Source: Chitinophagaceae bacterium
GTDB lineage: Bacteria; Bacteroidota; Bacteroidia; Chitinophagales; Chitinophagaceae
Length of the DNA: 64,000 nt
Reading direction: 5' to 3'
NCBI GenBank assembly: GCA_947372105.1
Contig: CANBSH010000001.1
Coordinates: 42,135 to 106,134 of the forward strand
Shown: piece after piece, positions 12,956 through 36,935 of the stretch
Numbering within the stretch: position 1 is the stretch's first letter
How the letters are laid out: each line of letters starts with the position of its first letter
Translations under genes and position numbers: made by a program
Notes under the pieces: model-generated
Databases searched by the model: none
Told to the model about the DNA's origin: nothing
What the model saw: only the letters and a program-made list of their open reading frames with translations

Positions 12956-13124
12956 GCTTACGTTTTTAAGTATGCAAATAATTTAAATTTAATATAAAAC
13001 TACTTAGTCTAATTGCTTAAGCAACTACCCTATTTTAATAAGCTTAAATATAACAAAAAGCGGTTAAGTTTTCAACAATGGGTTAATAATTAATGCATTC
13101 GGCAAAATTATTTACACTTATGTT

Positions 13125-13290
13125 TGTCTTGGAATTAGGTTCATGCAAATGATTAAAAGGGAACCCCGTTTAAATCGGGGGCTATTCCCGTAGCTGTGAG
13201 TTCATTGCCAAAAGCAATCAATGCAATATATCCACTGAAGCAATTTGGGAAGGATGCATTCAAAAAGAACAAGCCAGAAGACCTGCCTAA
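13125..13290 (+). promoter_or_regulatory. Cobalamin (B12) riboswitch
   Basis: TTAAAAGGGAAcCCCGTTTAAATCGGGGgCTaTTCCCGTAGCTGTGA ... TCCACTG ... TTTGGGAAGG ... AAGCCAGAAGACCTGCC, canonical cobalamin-riboswitch elements in order, upstream of a BtuB-like receptor. Confidence 0.93.
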
Positions 13291-13460
13291 TTAATAAATC
13301 AACAGCTTTCGGGTAAAAAGCAAGGATTGTAAAAAAAAGATTTGCGTTTGTATAACATTGGATCACTTAAAAAGGGATCTTATGCTTTGTAACATGCACA
13401 TCAATTAATTATGGTTCTCTTTCTCCAGGAAGCTCATTGTTAACAATAAAAAACAAAACA

Positions 13461-29913: not shown

Positions 29914-30798
29914 CTAAATGGATTTAAGAAAATCTATGGTCTCGGCTAAACTCTTCTTTAGATGAATATTGGGAGCAACCGCTCCTTTGTATATTTGAAT
30001 CAATTGACCTGAAAGAATAATTGGAATGTTGCTACTTACATCCTGCAAACCTTCAAAAAACTTATTGACCTTGAAATTTTTTGCTGGAGACGTTAAATGA
30101 CAATATAAATAATCCACCTTTTTTACTCCGGTTAGATACTTCAAATCCACTGTAGGAACATTGGCACCTAGATAATCTACAAAAATACCCCGTTGTTTTA
30201 ATAAAAAGTGGACATACAATAATCCAATTTCATGATGTTCTCCTTCGGGCATAAACAAGACCACTCTCTTGGTATATTGTAATAAGGAAGGCAATTTTTC
30301 AATCCCCATTATAATTTTTTGTCGTAAAATATTGGTTGCTAAATGCTCTTGCGCAGGATTAATATGATTAGTTACCCAAAGAATACCCACTCTTTCCAAG
30401 AAATTAAAAATAACCTCTGTAATAGTTCTATCTATTCCTTTTTGAGCAATATTTAAATCTAATAATTTTTCAAAATTTGCCATATTTAAGGAAATCATTT
30501 CCTTAATAAGTCCATTCACAATACGCTCTCTTTGAGCTTCCATTTGATTCAAACTGAGGATTTTTTCTTCAATTTGATCCGTGGACATTTTGTCTATATG
30601 GGAAATTTTAAACCCATATTTATTTAAAAGTGAAACGTTTAAAATAGTCTTTAACTCCTCCCCTGAATAGGTACGAATATTAGTTTCAGTACGCTTAGGT
30701 TGTAAGAAATGATAGCGCTGCTCCCAAATACGAATAGTATGGGCCTTAATACCTGAAATTGTCTCTAAATCTTTAATCGTGTAAGAGGTCATACCCAA
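29914..30798 (-). CDS. MerR-family regulator with cobalamin-binding domain (CarH/LitR-like)
   Basis: MerR HTH (YTIKDLETISGIKAHTIRIWEQRY), W-x9-EH motif (WVTNHINPAQEH), ExHxxG cobalamin-binding motif (EHHEIG). Confidence 0.92.
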   Translation of the reverse strand: MGMTSYTIKDLETISGIKAHTIRIWEQRYHFLQPKRTETNIRTYSGEELKTILNVSLLNKYGFKISHIDKMSTDQIEEKILSLNQMEAQRERIVNGLIKEMISLNMANFEKLLDLNIAQKGIDRTITEVIFNFLERVGILWVTNHINPAQEHLATNILRQKIIMGIEKLPSLLQYTKRVVLFMPEGEHHEIGLLYVHFLLKQRGIFVDYLGANVPTVDLKYLTGVKKVDYLYCHLTSPAKNFKVNKFFEGLQDVSSNIPIILSGQLIQIYKGAVAPNIHLKKSLAETIDFLKSI

Positions 30799-30871: not shown

Positions 30872-31732
30872 TTATTTTTTCAAGCCCCTTAAATATTCTC
30901 CGTAACCACTTTTAGCATACTTGTCCGCCAATACTAATAATTGAGCCTTATCTATAAAGCCCATTCTAAAAGCCACTTCTTCTATACATCCAATTTTCTG
31001 ACTTTGGCGCTTTTCAATCACTCTTACGAATTCACAAGCATCTGCTAAGGACTCAAAAGTACCTGTGTCTAACCAAGCTGTGCCACGATTCATAATACCC
31101 ACTTGCAATTGCTTGCGTTCTAAATACACTTTATTGACATCTGTGATTTCATATTCCCCACGAGGAGAAGCTGGTATATTTTTTGCAATTTCCACTACCT
31201 GATTATCATAAAAATACAATCCAGGGACTGCATAATTGGACTTAGGTGCTTTTGGTTTTTCTTCTAATGACAAAGCATTGTTGTTGTCATCAAACTCCAC
31301 TACTCCATAACGCTCCGGATCATTTACTTCATACGCAAACACAGCAGCCCCTTCCACGTCATTGAAAGATTGTACCAATTTACTAAAGCCAGCCCCATAA
31401 AAAATATTATCACCTAAAACCAAAGACACTTTGTCCTTACCAATAAAATCGGCACCAATCACGAATGCTTGTGCCAACCCATTAGGAACTGCTTGCACTG
31501 CATAACTAAACTTACATCCTATTTCAGAACCATCTCCCAATAATCTTTTAAATTGATCATTGTCTTCGGGGGTGGTAATAATTAAAACTTCTTTAATCCC
31601 CGCTAACATTAAAACGGACAAAGGATAATAAATCATGGGCTTATCATAGATAGGCATCAATTGTTTGCTGATTCCCTTGGTAATTGGATACAATCTTGTA
31701 CCTGATCCACCTGCTAATATGATTCCTTTCAT
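30872..31732 (-). CDS. rfbA: Glucose-1-phosphate thymidylyltransferase
   Basis: [46 protein letters not shown]. Confidence 0.96.
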
Positions 31733-31808
31733 AAACCTGATTTTTTATTTTTTTACTTGTGTTTATGTTTTCGCACTTTGTGCTCAAATCATATCACTTA
31801 TTATTTCA

Positions 31809-32360
31809 TTATAAACTCGCTACATACTCAGCGAAGCTTCCTAATATTTTATCTTTTTCGGATAATATGATTTCATGTGTAGCCAATTTCCAATCAATAT
31901 TTAAATCGGCATCATTATACATAATCCCTACTTCGTTTCCTGGTTCATAAAATTTATCTACCTTATAAAAGAAGGTTGCAGAATCACTCAACACTACAAA
32001 ACCATGTGCAAATCCTGCTGGCACAAAAAATTGTTTACGATTTTCTGAGGTTAATTCAATCGCAAAATGTTGTCCAAAACTGGGCGACCCTTTTCGTAAA
32101 TCTACTGCAATATCTAAAACAGACCCCTCCAACACTCTTACTAGTTTTGCTTGCGCAGCAGCGCCTCTTTGCATATGCAATCCTCTTAATACGCCTTTAG
32201 AAGATCTGGATTGATTGTCTTGCACAAATTGAACATCCAATCCACTGGCTGCTTTAAAATCACGTTGATTAAAGGTTTCAATAAAATAACCTCTAGCATC
32301 GCCATGCACTTTTTCATGCACTATAAAACAATCTTGAAGGGGGGTCTGCTCAATTCTCAT
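31809..32360 (-). CDS. rfbC: dTDP-4-dehydrorhamnose 3,5-epimerase
   Basis: GYFIETFNQRDF, QDNQSRSSKGVLRGLHMQ, FFVPAGFAHGFVVLSD. Confidence 0.95.
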   Translation of the reverse strand: MRIEQTPLQDCFIVHEKVHGDARGYFIETFNQRDFKAASGLDVQFVQDNQSRSSKGVLRGLHMQRGAAAQAKLVRVLEGSVLDIAVDLRKGSPSFGQHFAIELTSENRKQFFVPAGFAHGFVVLSDSATFFYKVDKFYEPGNEVGIMYNDADLNIDWKLATHEIILSEKDKILGSFAEYVASL

Positions 32361-32394
32361 TCGACTCTTTATAAATTAATTAAATATGCAATGA

Positions 32395-33489
32395 TTAACG
32401 ATTCGTATACATTTCAGTATAATATGTTTGGTAAGCACCACTTGTTACATGTTCTAACCAATCATTATTATTTAAATACCAATCGATGGTTTCTGCTAAA
32501 CCTTGCTCAAAGGTAACCGAAGGAGCCCATCCTAATTCTTTATTTAATTTGGTCGCATCAATAGCATATCGACGGTCATGTCCTGGTCGGTCTTTCACAT
32601 AAGTAATAAGCGCTTCGCTTTCGCCTAACGTTCTGCCTAATTTCACATCCATTTGCGCACACATCAATTTTACTAAATCAATATTAGTCCATTCATTAAA
32701 GCCACCAATATTATAAGTATCACCACGTTTACCTTGATGAAATACCATATCTATAGCGCGTGCATGATCTTTCACATACAACCAATCACGTGTATACAAA
32801 CCATCTCCATATACAGGCAATGCTTTTTTATGAATGATATTATGTATAAATAATGGAATTAATTTTTCAGGAAAATGATTAGGCCCGTAGTTATTAGAAC
32901 AATTAGAAATCACTGTAGGTAAATGATAAGTTTCACCATATGCTCTCACAAAATGATCACTCGCTGCTTTACTTGCTGAATAAGGTGAATTAGGATCATA
33001 CGCTGTGGTTTCGGTAAATAATCCTTCTTTGCCTAAGCTACCATATACTTCATCGGTAGAAACATGATAAAATAAATGATCACGTTTTTGTTCCCAAGAT
33101 CCATCATGTGCTATCTCATAACTTAAATCGTTCTTCCAATATTCCTTCGCTGTATTTAATAAATTCACGGTACCAATCACATTGGTATATACAAAGTCCA
33201 AAGGTGAAACAATCGAACGGTCCACATGAGATTCTGCAGCCAAATGGATGACGTCGGTAATGTGATGTTTTTGAAATATTTCTTTTAGAACGTCTGCTTC
33301 TAAAATATTGGCTTTTACAAAATGATAATTAGAAGCTCCTTCAATATCTTTTAAATTTTCTAAATTACCTGCATAGGTTAATGCATCCAAGTTAAAGATT
33401 TGATAATCAGGATATTTCGTAACCATTAATCGAATCACATGGGAACCAATAAATCCTGCACCTCCGGTGATTAAAATGTTTTTTTGCAT
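32395..33489 (-). CDS. rfbB: dTDP-glucose 4,6-dehydratase
   Basis: MQKNILITGGAGFIGSHVIR, HLAAESHVDRSI, FYHVSTDEVYGSLG, PYSASKAASDHFVRAYGETY; the longer ORF extends to 33573. Confidence 0.95.
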   Translation of the reverse strand: MQKNILITGGAGFIGSHVIRLMVTKYPDYQIFNLDALTYAGNLENLKDIEGASNYHFVKANILEADVLKEIFQKHHITDVIHLAAESHVDRSIVSPLDFVYTNVIGTVNLLNTAKEYWKNDLSYEIAHDGSWEQKRDHLFYHVSTDEVYGSLGKEGLFTETTAYDPNSPYSASKAASDHFVRAYGETYHLPTVISNCSNNYGPNHFPEKLIPLFIHNIIHKKALPVYGDGLYTRDWLYVKDHARAIDMVFHQGKRGDTYNIGGFNEWTNIDLVKLMCAQMDVKLGRTLGESEALITYVKDRPGHDRRYAIDATKLNKELGWAPSVTFEQGLAETIDWYLNNNDWLEHVTSGAYQTYYTEMYTNR

Positions 33490-33561
33490 CTGAATTTTGT
33501 ATCTTACAAAGATATTAAAACAAGTATATATATTACGAAGTAATTTATAAAAGTTTAAGTC

Positions 33562-34716
33562 ATGAAGCAACAACGCTATTATTCCCTAGATGTGTTTAGA
33601 GGTGCCACCGTGGCCCTCATGATTTTAGTGAACAACCCAGGTTCTTGGGGACATATTTTTAGCCCATTAGCCCATGCCAGTTGGCATGGCTGCACCCCTA
33701 CGGATTTAGTGTTTCCTTTCTTTTTATTTGCCGTGGGAAATGCCATGTCCTTTGTGATGCCTAAGTTGCAACAAGGAAATGATAGTGCTTTTTGGGGCAA
33801 AGTCATCCAACGTACTATAATGATTTTTGGAATTGGCTTATTTTTAAATTGGAGCCCCTTTGTTAAATTTTCGGAAGATGTATTAGTTTGGAAACCTTGG
33901 GAGAATGTGCGCATATTAGGAGTACTTCAACGAATTGCATTGTGTTACTTTTTTGCATCCGTTATTATTTATTATGGAAAATCTCGAATGGCTTTATTTA
34001 TAGGAATGATGATATTAGTGATTTACTGGGTACTCACTTTTTCACTAGGCGTGCCAGGACATATGTATAGTTTATCCGGATACTTTGGCAACGCCATGGA
34101 TCAACAAATTTTAGGACTCACTCATATTTATAAAGGAGAAGGAGTGCCTTTTGATCCAGAAGGACTTACTAGCACTTTGCCTGCCATTGTGCAAGTAATA
34201 TTTGGATATTTAGTAGGCGAGTATATACAACTCAAAGGAAAAAACTTTGACATGTTAGCGCAATTATTGTTAACAGGAGTGGTATTAGTACTTGTTGGAT
34301 ACATCTGGGATTTTAGTTTCCCTATTAATAAAAAAATATGGACAAGTAGTTATGTGTTTTATACTACCGGTTTAGCCATGATTACATTGGGCATGTTTAT
34401 TTACTTATTAGAATTTAAAGAAGCCAAAGGAAGATGGAGTCAATTCTTTGATGTGTTTGGCAAGAATCCACTTTTCATTTTTGTGCTCAGTGGATTTTTA
34501 CCAAGAGTATTGGCTTTATTAAGATGGGTAGATCATGTAGATGAAAAAGGAGAAAAAGTATACACTTCAGCCCTACCCTGGTTTTACGAACATGTTTGTA
34601 AAAATATCGCAACCGATTTACGCATTGGATCATTGCTGTATGCTTTATGCATGATTGCATTTATGGGTTTACTAGCCTATATTTTAGATAAGAAGAAAAT
34701 TTACATCAAAGTGTAA
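33562..34716 (+). CDS. Multi-TM acyltransferase, heparan-alpha-glucosaminide N-acetyltransferase-like (DUF5009/NagX-like)
   Basis: RYYSLDVFRGATVALMILVNNPGSWGHIFSPLAHASWHGCTPTDLVFPFFLFAVGNAMSF, GVLQRIALCYFF, FDPEGLTSTLPAI. Confidence 0.9.
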   Translation: MKQQRYYSLDVFRGATVALMILVNNPGSWGHIFSPLAHASWHGCTPTDLVFPFFLFAVGNAMSFVMPKLQQGNDSAFWGKVIQRTIMIFGIGLFLNWSPFVKFSEDVLVWKPWENVRILGVLQRIALCYFFASVIIYYGKSRMALFIGMMILVIYWVLTFSLGVPGHMYSLSGYFGNAMDQQILGLTHIYKGEGVPFDPEGLTSTLPAIVQVIFGYLVGEYIQLKGKNFDMLAQLLLTGVVLVLVGYIWDFSFPINKKIWTSSYVFYTTGLAMITLGMFIYLLEFKEAKGRWSQFFDVFGKNPLFIFVLSGFLPRVLALLRWVDHVDEKGEKVYTSALPWFYEHVCKNIATDLRIGSLLYALCMIAFMGLLAYILDKKKIYIKV

Positions 34717-34747: not shown

Positions 34748-35494
34748 TTACGCAAACAAAGTAGCTGCTTTTTCTAAACTCTCCGGCTTTCCAACATCTA
34801 ATAAAATGCTATCGCTATGATCATAGCAACCAATGGTATGCGTAGCAGCTATTTGTAAGTAAGCATCAATGAGCGAAAATTTACCCGTGAATGCAAGGGC
34901 TTTATAAAATGCTTGATGTATTATTTGAATTCCGCTAAAAGCTTTGGCAGTATAGGGTTGAGTTGAGGCACTTTGATTGACCCATTTTTCTTCGCCCGTT
35001 GTGTTATTTTTCCAACCTACTAGATGACCTGCATCATTAAATAATAAATTACGACTAGATGTTCTACTAGTTACTGCTAGTGTAGCAATATAATGATTCG
35101 TTGCTGCTGAATTTATTTGATCCGCTTGAATCAATGATGCTAAATTCATATTAGTAAGTATGTCGGCATTCATGACCAACCAATTCTTTTCATTTGCAAA
35201 ATAAGTTGCTGCTTTTAAAACTCCTCCTCCTGTTTCTAACACTTCATTGGTTTCATCTGAAATGGTCACATTCGCTCCCCAACCACTTGCATTCGTAATG
35301 GCTTGTATTATTTGATCGCTAAAATGATGCACATTTACAATGACTTCTTGGATGCCTGCATGTTGTAAATATTCAATATTTCTTTGTAATAAAGATTTAT
35401 CATTCACCACCGCTAATGCTTTGGGATGATGATCGGTGAAGGGTTTCAACCTAGTACCTAAACCTGCAGCTAAAATCATGGCACGCATACACAA
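34748..35494 (-). CDS. Sugar nucleotidyltransferase, MurU-like
   Basis: MRAMILAAGLGTRLKPFTDHHPKALAVVNDKSLLQRNIEYL, VTISDETNEVLETGGGVLKA, VMNADILTNM. Confidence 0.85.
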   Translation of the reverse strand: MCMRAMILAAGLGTRLKPFTDHHPKALAVVNDKSLLQRNIEYLQHAGIQEVIVNVHHFSDQIIQAITNASGWGANVTISDETNEVLETGGGVLKAATYFANEKNWLVMNADILTNMNLASLIQADQINSAATNHYIATLAVTSRTSSRNLLFNDAGHLVGWKNNTTGEEKWVNQSASTQPYTAKAFSGIQIIHQAFYKALAFTGKFSLIDAYLQIAATHTIGCYDHSDSILLDVGKPESLEKAATLFA

Positions 35495-35495
35495 A

Positions 35496-36935
35496 TTATT
35501 TAACCCAATTTTCTTGGTTCGTATGCAATAAAATAGTTTTCACTTTGTACTTGTTTTTAAGATGTCTTGCAGTTTGTTCTGCCGCAAATACACTTCTATG
35601 TTGTCCACCAGTACATCCAAAGTTAATATGCAAGGATTCAAATCCTCTTTCTAAATAATTCTCCACTGTAATATCTACTAAGTCCCACACACTATTTAAA
35701 AATACATTCATCTTGGTTCTTTGTTCTAAAAAATCTTGCACTGGCTTATCTAAACCTGATAATTTTTTATAATCATCAAACCTTCCTGGATTTAAAATAC
35801 CACGCATATCAAAAACAAATCCACCACCATTATCGGAAGCATCTTTAGGGATTCCTTTTTTATAACTAAAACTGTGAATGGTAATCACTAAAGGCGTTTC
35901 GTCAGTTGCCTTAGGGGGTGTAAATCGCCCTACTACTTCGTCCGTCACCATCCATTTTAAGATGGATGCGAATACGGGTGTCTTTGCATCAATGGCATGA
36001 TGTGCTAAAAAGTTTTTGATATTATTTAAGCCCAAAGGAATACTCGTTAAAAAATGAGCTTTGCGCTCAAACAAACCTCTAAATCCATAAGCACCCATAA
36101 CTTGTAATAATCTTAATAAAACAAAACCTTGATACTGTTTTTTAAGTGCTGGTATATTTAATGGGGTAGGAATTAATTTTTGAACTTCTTCAATATAGTA
36201 ATTCAATAATTTTTCCTTCCACTCTTGAGAAAGTTCAGCCTTTGCTTGCCACAATAAAGAAGCTACATCATAAGTCAAACCGCCTTGCATTCCTCCTTGG
36301 AAATCGATGAAAAAAACTTCGTCCTTAGCTACAATAATATTTCGGCTTTGGAAATCACGAAACATAAAATGGTTCAATTCATTGGAAGCTAATTCATCAC
36401 TTAGCCATTCAAATTCATCAATTAATGCTTGTTTATCGTAAGGGTATTGTAAAGTGTCTAAGAAATAGTACTTATAATATAGTAAGTCAGTTAGTATGGA
36501 ATGTTTTCCAAATACTTTAGAAGTTAAGCACTTAGAGTAATCTAAACCCTCCCCACCTTGCACTTGTAATTTTGCTAACGCTGATAAGCTTTTTTGAAAT
36601 AAAGTGAACACATGATCTGTCTTGCCTTCTTTTTCTAATACATCTAATAATGAAGTGGCCCCTAAGTCTTCCTGCAAGTAAACAGTTTTAGCATCATTCA
36701 TTGCCAATACTTTAGGAACTGGCAATCCTTTACTTTTAAAATGATCTGCGAAGTAAATGAAGGTATCGCTCTCTCTTATATTCAAACTATAAGTAGCCAT
36801 CCAAGACTGGTTTCCTTGAATGATTCTATAATAAACACGGTCACCCCCACTTTGAGGAATCTTATGAATTTGATCCCAATCTTTCCCGTGATAGGAAATA
36901 TATAGATTGTGTATATGTTTTACAATATCCTCCAT
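35496..36935 (-). CDS. Fusion: N-terminal aminoglycoside-phosphotransferase-fold (AmgK-like) kinase plus C-terminal RapZ-type domain
   Basis: Kinase motifs HFMFRDFQSRNIIV / VFFIDFQGGMQGGLTYDVASLL; C-terminal FVFDMRGILNPGR...HINFGCTGGQHRSVFAAEQTARHL matches the RapZ C-terminal domain. Confidence 0.88.
   Translation of the reverse strand: MEDIVKHIHNLYISYHGKDWDQIHKIPQSGGDRVYYRIIQGNQSWMATYSLNIRESDTFIYFADHFKSKGLPVPKVLAMNDAKTVYLQEDLGATSLLDVLEKEGKTDHVFTLFQKSLSALAKLQVQGGEGLDYSKCLTSKVFGKHSILTDLLYYKYYFLDTLQYPYDKQALIDEFEWLSDELASNELNHFMFRDFQSRNIIVAKDEVFFIDFQGGMQGGLTYDVASLLWQAKAELSQEWKEKLLNYYIEEVQKLIPTPLNIPALKKQYQGFVLLRLLQVMGAYGFRGLFERKAHFLTSIPLGLNNIKNFLAHHAIDAKTPVFASILKWMVTDEVVGRFTPPKATDETPLVITIHSFSYKKGIPKDASDNGGGFVFDMRGILNPGRFDDYKKLSGLDKPVQDFLEQRTKMNVFLNSVWDLVDITVENYLERGFESLHINFGCTGGQHRSVFAAEQTARHLKNKYKVKTILLHTNQENWVK

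Follow-up and report, generated by a model that had tools for sequence, protein, structure and literature searches.

The 64,000-nt stretch of DNA analysed here (the window) encodes on its minus strand a 479-aa protein, read from an ATG start, that joins an APH/AmgK-like sugar kinase to a RapZ C-terminal domain (35496..36935, including the stop codon). This fusion is probably a bifunctional peptidoglycan-recycling enzyme, whose RapZ domain would dephosphorylate MurNAc-6-phosphate (MurNAc-6P) and whose kinase half would make MurNAc-1P for a MurU-like enzyme encoded next to it. Comparisons of gene content across Bacteroidota suggest that the RapZ C-terminal domain (RapZ_C) acts as the missing phosphate-stripping enzyme for a recycled cell-wall sugar rather than as a sensor. 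Although genomes that carry the fusion are public, no paper describing it was found among open-licence publications, and we rate it, against that literature, as a variant, not previously described, of the known AmgK/MurU recycling pathway.

Domain architecture of the fusion protein

The kinase half (residues 1–330; 35946..36935, minus strand) contains a Pfam APH domain (PF01636) at residues 55–248 (E = 8.1e-12; 45.8 bits vs. a cut-off of 23.2) and matches PDB entry 3csv both by sequence and as the top fold match. Alignment of 27 homologues revealed the APH-type catalytic residues D194, N199 and D211 (catalytic Asp, Asn and metal-binding Asp, respectively) to be invariant. Two AmgK models from NCBIfam were the best kinase matches listed for the fusion, though with 52.3 and 42.5 bits they stayed under their equivalog cut-offs of 550 and 500, respectively.

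The RapZ C-terminal domain comprises about residues 348–467 (35535..35894, minus strand) and was called by Pfam at residues 350–467 (PF22740; E = 2.9e-32; 111.8 bits vs. a cut-off of 27). Indeed, the C-terminal domain of E. coli RapZ (PDB 5o5s) was the best PDB sequence match of the fusion (E = 1.3e-15). The N-terminal P-loop half of RapZ is missing from the 479-aa protein according to Pfam and NCBIfam, with the kinase standing in its place, and the whole-protein RapZ equivalog (NF003828) reached only 103.6 bits, below its cut-off of 244. A preliminary description of the locus, made from the sequence alone, had proposed this architecture—an APH/AmgK-like kinase, a RapZ C-terminal domain and no P-loop half—and was borne out on each point by these searches.

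AlphaFold modelled the full-length fusion, using 27 homologues, with a pLDDT of 90.3 and a pTM of 0.78, and the C-terminal domain alone with a pLDDT of 94.6. When compared by Foldseek, the latter model showed the same fold as the E. coli RapZ C-terminal domain 5o5s (TM-score of 0.91 on the target; rmsd of 1.9 Å), and among the 50 matches listed, RapZ alone had significant E-values.

Genomic context and the MurU-like neighbour

The downstream gene of the operon-like arrangement encodes a MurU-like nucleotidyltransferase (34748..35494, minus strand). As the preliminary description had noted, a single base separates its ORF from that of the fusion; this holds with a TTG start, while a more usual ATG lies six bases further in, at 35488, and is the probable start. 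MurU was the top-ranked NCBIfam equivalog of this neighbour, yet at 133.9 bits it remained under the cut-off of 250 (NF045761). The best PDB matches were 4y7t and 8hhd, of which 8hhd bears the name MurNAc-alpha-1-phosphate uridylyltransferase. As both the AmgK and the MurU scores fall under the NCBI equivalog cut-offs, 'AmgK-like' and 'MurU-like' are the appropriate terms.

When one genome per species was scanned, at least 592 stretches matched, at least 582 of which encode a relative, placing the fusion in hundreds of species genomes, mostly of Bacteroidota. The 80 relatives kept from these (of at least 582) likewise derive mostly from Bacteroidota (Chitinophagaceae, Bacteroides, Phocaeicola, Parabacteroides, Prevotellaceae, Muribaculum and Tannerella), and a small number from Ignavibacteria, Calditrichia, Delongbacteria and Elusimicrobia; among the relatives listed, the organism of the window is nearest to Chitinophagaceae. 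In line with the linkage noted in the window, a MurU-like gene was present in 55 of the 80 loci and directly downstream in 50 of them. Since the arrangement is conserved across loci, the adjacency of the kinase–RapZ_C and MurU-like genes does not reflect chance. Regardless of adjacency, MurU-like genes were found in 13 of 13 RapZ_C genomes tested vs. none of 13 genomes devoid of RapZ_C.

Convergent with the MurU-like gene is an ORF for a 384-aa multi-pass protein (33562..34716, plus strand) that had no Pfam match at E 1e-5 and that may be a membrane protein of the heparan-alpha-glucosaminide N-acetyltransferase type (NagX-like). Elsewhere in the window, three consecutive dTDP-sugar genes (nucleotidyltransferase, 3,5-epimerase, 4,6-dehydratase; 30872..33573, minus strand) form an rml-like cluster. 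A MerR-type regulator with B12-binding-like domains (29914..30798, minus strand) is encoded near sigma-factor-like and phytoene-desaturase-like genes, suggesting that these surroundings comprise light-regulated carotenoid genes. A cobalamin riboswitch (RF00174; 98.7 bits; 13120..13304, plus strand) precedes an ORF at 13437.

RapZ_C accompanies the kinase, fused or not

PF22740 was detected in 36 of 297 Bacteroidota genomes, representing 11 families, with one copy per genome. The kinase (≥121 bits) was present in all 36, vs. a single one of the 261 genomes without RapZ_C (G009, where it is of comparable strength); the Fisher p value of 1e-45 for this co-occurrence ignores kinship and is to be read as a description. 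We considered whether the G009 kinase is an unrelated APH and rejected this, as it falls inside the RapZ_C-associated kinase clade (100/100; its position within the clade is not fixed by the tree).

In most of the 36 genomes, RapZ_C is fused to the kinase. Family f4, however, has kinase, RapZ_C and MurU, in this order, as three separate genes next to one another; RapZ_C and kinase are separate neighbours in G031; and in G180 and G272 the RapZ_C gene is unlinked, far from the kinase in the genome. The latter stand-alone genes (L031 and L032) encode proteins of ~140 aa and have no kinase or MurU gene nearby; both genomes have AnmK. At least three changes on the kinase tree are needed to account for the unfused state. 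Given that RapZ_C has stayed with the kinase in these genomes despite separating from it more than once, the domain probably contributes a function required by the pathway, and the fact that RapZ_C follows the kinase as a separate or even unlinked gene fits an enzymatic step better than a regulatory domain acting in cis.

Plausible source and fate of MurNAc-6P in RapZ_C genomes

MurNAc-6P is made from anhydro-MurNAc by AnmK and destroyed by MurQ; in Pseudomonas, it is dephosphorylated by MupP, a phosphatase of the HAD family. AnmK was found in 26 of the 36 RapZ_C genomes, one of the 26 copies (G216) being a contig-end fragment. Nine of the other ten genomes encode a BadF-type, MurK-like kinase (85–144 bits) with an AmpG-like permease, and often also a GH3 enzyme, nearby. 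For two of these nine kinases that were tested, the closest PDB entry was a MurNAc/GlcNAc kinase (E = 5e-40 and 6e-33). The tenth AnmK-less genome, G230, carries a weakly BadF-like gene immediately next to MurQ, and its assignment as a kinase is weak. AnmK in 26 genomes and MurK-like kinases in ten thus provide a plausible source of MurNAc-6P in each of the 36. We had regarded the ten AnmK-less genomes as a potential refutation of a MurNAc-6P substrate, an objection dropped once the MurK-like kinases were found, nearly all beside an AmpG-like permease.

As for the fate of this metabolite, MurQ is missing from 19 of the 36 RapZ_C genomes, and no MupP equivalog was detected in any of the 36 (best score 101 bits vs. 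a cut-off of 359), so that in the 19 MurNAc-6P would otherwise lack a known fate. TIGR00274 matches to genes of ~615 aa or to sub-50-bit frames were not counted as MurQ and were treated as other SIS-domain proteins. HAD phosphatases scoring under the MupP cut-off could carry out the dephosphorylation.

The informative cases of absence are those where the kinase occurs without RapZ_C. AnmK was absent from all 46 genomes tested that lack RapZ_C yet encode either the kinase itself or a distant AmgK-like one, a set that consists of one family (f17, 45 genomes) and one genome (G009), so that kinship lowers the number of independent cases. In G009, no BadF kinase was found. The f17 AmgK-like/MurU-like pairs examined are accompanied by a sodium-solute symporter and, in the annotated locus L194, also by a NamZ exo-muramidase, which would deliver MurNAc already devoid of phosphate. 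Some f17 genomes gave strong BadF matches, which were rejected as sugar kinases; the one that was checked adjoins a 2-hydroxyacyl-CoA-dehydratase-like gene, and the group is hence taken as activases. Conversely, the kinase was absent from all 20 sampled RapZ_C-less genomes that possess AnmK together with a strong match to MurQ. RapZ_C accompanies the kinase where an AnmK or MurK-like 6-kinase exists and is missing where none was found, a distribution that a MurNAc-6P phosphatase would be expected to show.

These comparisons brought up other gene sets. The f17 loci L194 to L196 contain an operon for an AmgK-like kinase, a MurU-like protein with hexapeptide repeats, NamZ and a sodium-solute symporter (domains annotated in L194), probably a free-MurNAc salvage operon. 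In Bacteroidota genomes without AnmK, L184 to L186 and similar loci share a conserved group of genes for a MurK-like kinase, an AmpG-like permease and a large GH3 protein (L184 also featuring a PBP4B-like domain), which may represent an AnmK-independent muropeptide recycling operon.

An invariant C-X5-R-S loop in the RapZ domain

Based on alignment and model, we propose as phosphate-binding and catalytic element the C-X5-R-S loop C441-T-G-G-Q-H-R447-S448 (35592..35615, minus strand), corresponding to C247–S254 of E. coli RapZ. In the AlphaFold model, it lies between a strand (residues 434–441) and a helix (residues 447–463), with the cysteine ending the strand and the arginine starting the helix. 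Loop residues 441–448 are invariant in 71 homologues save Q445 (68 of 71), and so are D376, R378 and H471. The E. coli RapZ pocket binds sulphate or malonate via T248, G249, H252 and R253 (PMC5737377). The substitutions C247A and C247S inactivate the E. coli protein, for which the authors suggest a catalytic thiol, and its crystals with GlcN6P likely contain a chemically transformed product (PMC9841335). Later papers ascribe phosphatase activity to the RapZ relatives YvcJ (PMC7525490) and HpaP (PMC10782981); both proteins also carry the P-loop half.

With C441, R447 and S448 invariant in the 71 homologues, the loop conforms to the C-X5-R-S/T signature of the protein tyrosine phosphatase superfamily. 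Classifying the domain as a tyrosine phosphatase was nevertheless rejected, as the fold search with the C-terminal domain model pointed only to RapZ, with no protein tyrosine phosphatase fold among the 50 matches listed.

The pocket departs from that of E. coli RapZ at one position. Pairwise alignment puts Gly384 (35784..35786, minus strand) in the place of the ligand-pocket residue His190, and glycine occupies this position in 71 of 71 homologues aligned. The pocket set of H190, T248, G249, H252 and R253 is hence incompletely retained: T, G, H and R are invariant in the 71 homologues, and H190 is replaced. The loop is thus retained, and a histidine essential in E. coli (PMC9841335) is not. 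One may speculate that Gly384 makes the pocket more open, perhaps leaving room for the lactyl group of MurNAc.

A candidate MurNAc-6P phosphatase and its alternatives

In the route that we favour, AnmK, acting on anhydro-MurNAc, or a MurK-like kinase, acting on MurNAc, would produce MurNAc-6P, from which the RapZ-type domain would strip the 6-phosphate. Cys441 would serve as the nucleophile and, with Arg447, form a C-X5-R phosphate loop, implying a cysteine-phosphate mechanism within the RapZ fold. The MurNAc released would then be phosphorylated at C1 by the AmgK-like half, and the resulting MurNAc-1P would be turned into UDP-MurNAc by the co-transcribed MurU-like enzyme, bypassing MurA/MurB. 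The RapZ domain would, in effect, substitute for the HAD phosphatase MupP of Pseudomonas. Counting against a phosphatase, the known role of E. coli RapZ is that of an adaptor that binds GlcN6P.

Amino-sugar gating of the kinase, or regulation of RNA or protein partners, was the function suggested in the preliminary description. While the domains and the MurU linkage on which it built were right, its mechanism is disfavoured by the separate and unlinked RapZ_C copies, the tracking of 6-kinases, the exchange of His190 for glycine and the lack of a basic tail. A RapZ domain of this kind would bind GlcN6P (or another amino-sugar phosphate) and switch the fused or partner kinase, balancing salvage against GlmS-driven synthesis. 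Binding of GlcN6P by the E. coli RapZ C-terminal domain (PMC7073468), the retention of most pocket residues in the 71 homologues and the prevalence of the kinase fusion would agree with such a switch; yet the histidine essential for E. coli RapZ (PMC9841335) is glycine in 71 of 71 homologues, and MurNAc-6P would be left without a known fate in the 19 MurQ-less genomes. Because GlcN6P gating predicts neither the AnmK/MurK dependence nor the persistence of the domain as an unlinked gene, we demoted it from main explanation to an unlikely rival.

MurK-like kinases also use GlcNAc, and the 6-phosphate might therefore be GlcNAc-6P. Dephosphorylation of GlcNAc-6P or GlcN6P as the main substrate, with the kinase making GlcNAc-1P for a UDP-sugar, would suit the naming of AmgK-type enzymes as N-acetylmuramate/N-acetylglucosamine kinases (NCBIfam), the resemblance of the MurK-like kinases to a MurNAc/GlcNAc kinase and the binding of GlcN6P by E. 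coli RapZ (PMC7073468), but we consider it improbable given that both the MurU-like gene and the correspondence with AnmK, a maker of MurNAc-6P, point to MurNAc. That the domain binds small RNAs controlling amino-sugar genes, as in enteric bacteria, is barely credible despite its homology and fold match to the RNA-binding C-terminal domain of E. coli RapZ: the basic C-terminal tail tied to RNA binding in the latter (PMC7073468, PMC7525490) is absent from the aligned fusion and restricted to Enterobacteriaceae together with GlmY/GlmZ (PMC7073468), and no RNA family besides the cobalamin riboswitch and a tRNA was found in the 64,000-nt window.

If MurNAc-6P dephosphorylation by the RapZ domain is true, cell-wall recycling in a phylum dominant in the gut and in many environments follows a route with an unrecognised phosphatase, a route that bypasses MurA, the target of fosfomycin. 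There is a real chance that the fusion pathway reveals a new phosphatase family. The RapZ C-terminal domain would gain a chemical function, and the essentiality of Cys247 and the alteration of GlcN6P in RapZ crystals would be explained. More tentatively, the domain might by origin be a Cys-dependent amino-sugar-6-phosphate phosphatase with a fold unrecognised as such, which performs the MurNAc-6P step in Bacteroidota and whose descendant in enteric bacteria was repurposed as the sRNA adaptor RapZ, with GlcN6P sensing as a reflection of the old active site. The origin of this well-studied RNA adaptor would thereby become testable.

Relation to known systems

Among the closest known systems is the anabolic MurNAc recycling of Pseudomonas by AmgK, MurU and MupP (PMC5371407, PMC5371409), which shares with the present locus the neighbouring AmgK-like and MurU-like functions and AnmK in the host genome. 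It differs in that here no MupP equivalog was detected, a RapZ C-terminal domain is located on or alongside the kinase, and AmgK and MurU scores lie under the equivalog cut-offs. Also within Bacteroidota, MurNAc salvage has been studied in Tannerella forsythia, and a Tannerella sp. locus (L110) encodes the same fusion. That work demonstrated MurK and proposed an AmgK/MurU route for Bacteroidetes; T. forsythia has MurK and MurQ but no predicted AnmK, and a RapZ domain is not mentioned in the available portions of the papers (PMC7670621, PMC5790795).

With the RapZ proteins (YhbJ/YvcJ/HpaP), the domain of the fusion has in common the fold (TM-score 0.91) and the GCTGG-x-HRSV loop. In contrast to RapZ, the fusion lacks the N-terminal P-loop half and the basic RNA-binding tail, has glycine for His190 and an NGGG insertion before VFD, and the Bacteroidota domain is fused to, or co-occurs with, a sugar kinase. 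Finally, the C-X5-R cysteine phosphatases exhibit the same Cys–Arg spacing and, judging from the model, the same placement at a strand end and helix start, but their overall fold is different, so that the likeness extends at most to a similar phosphate loop.
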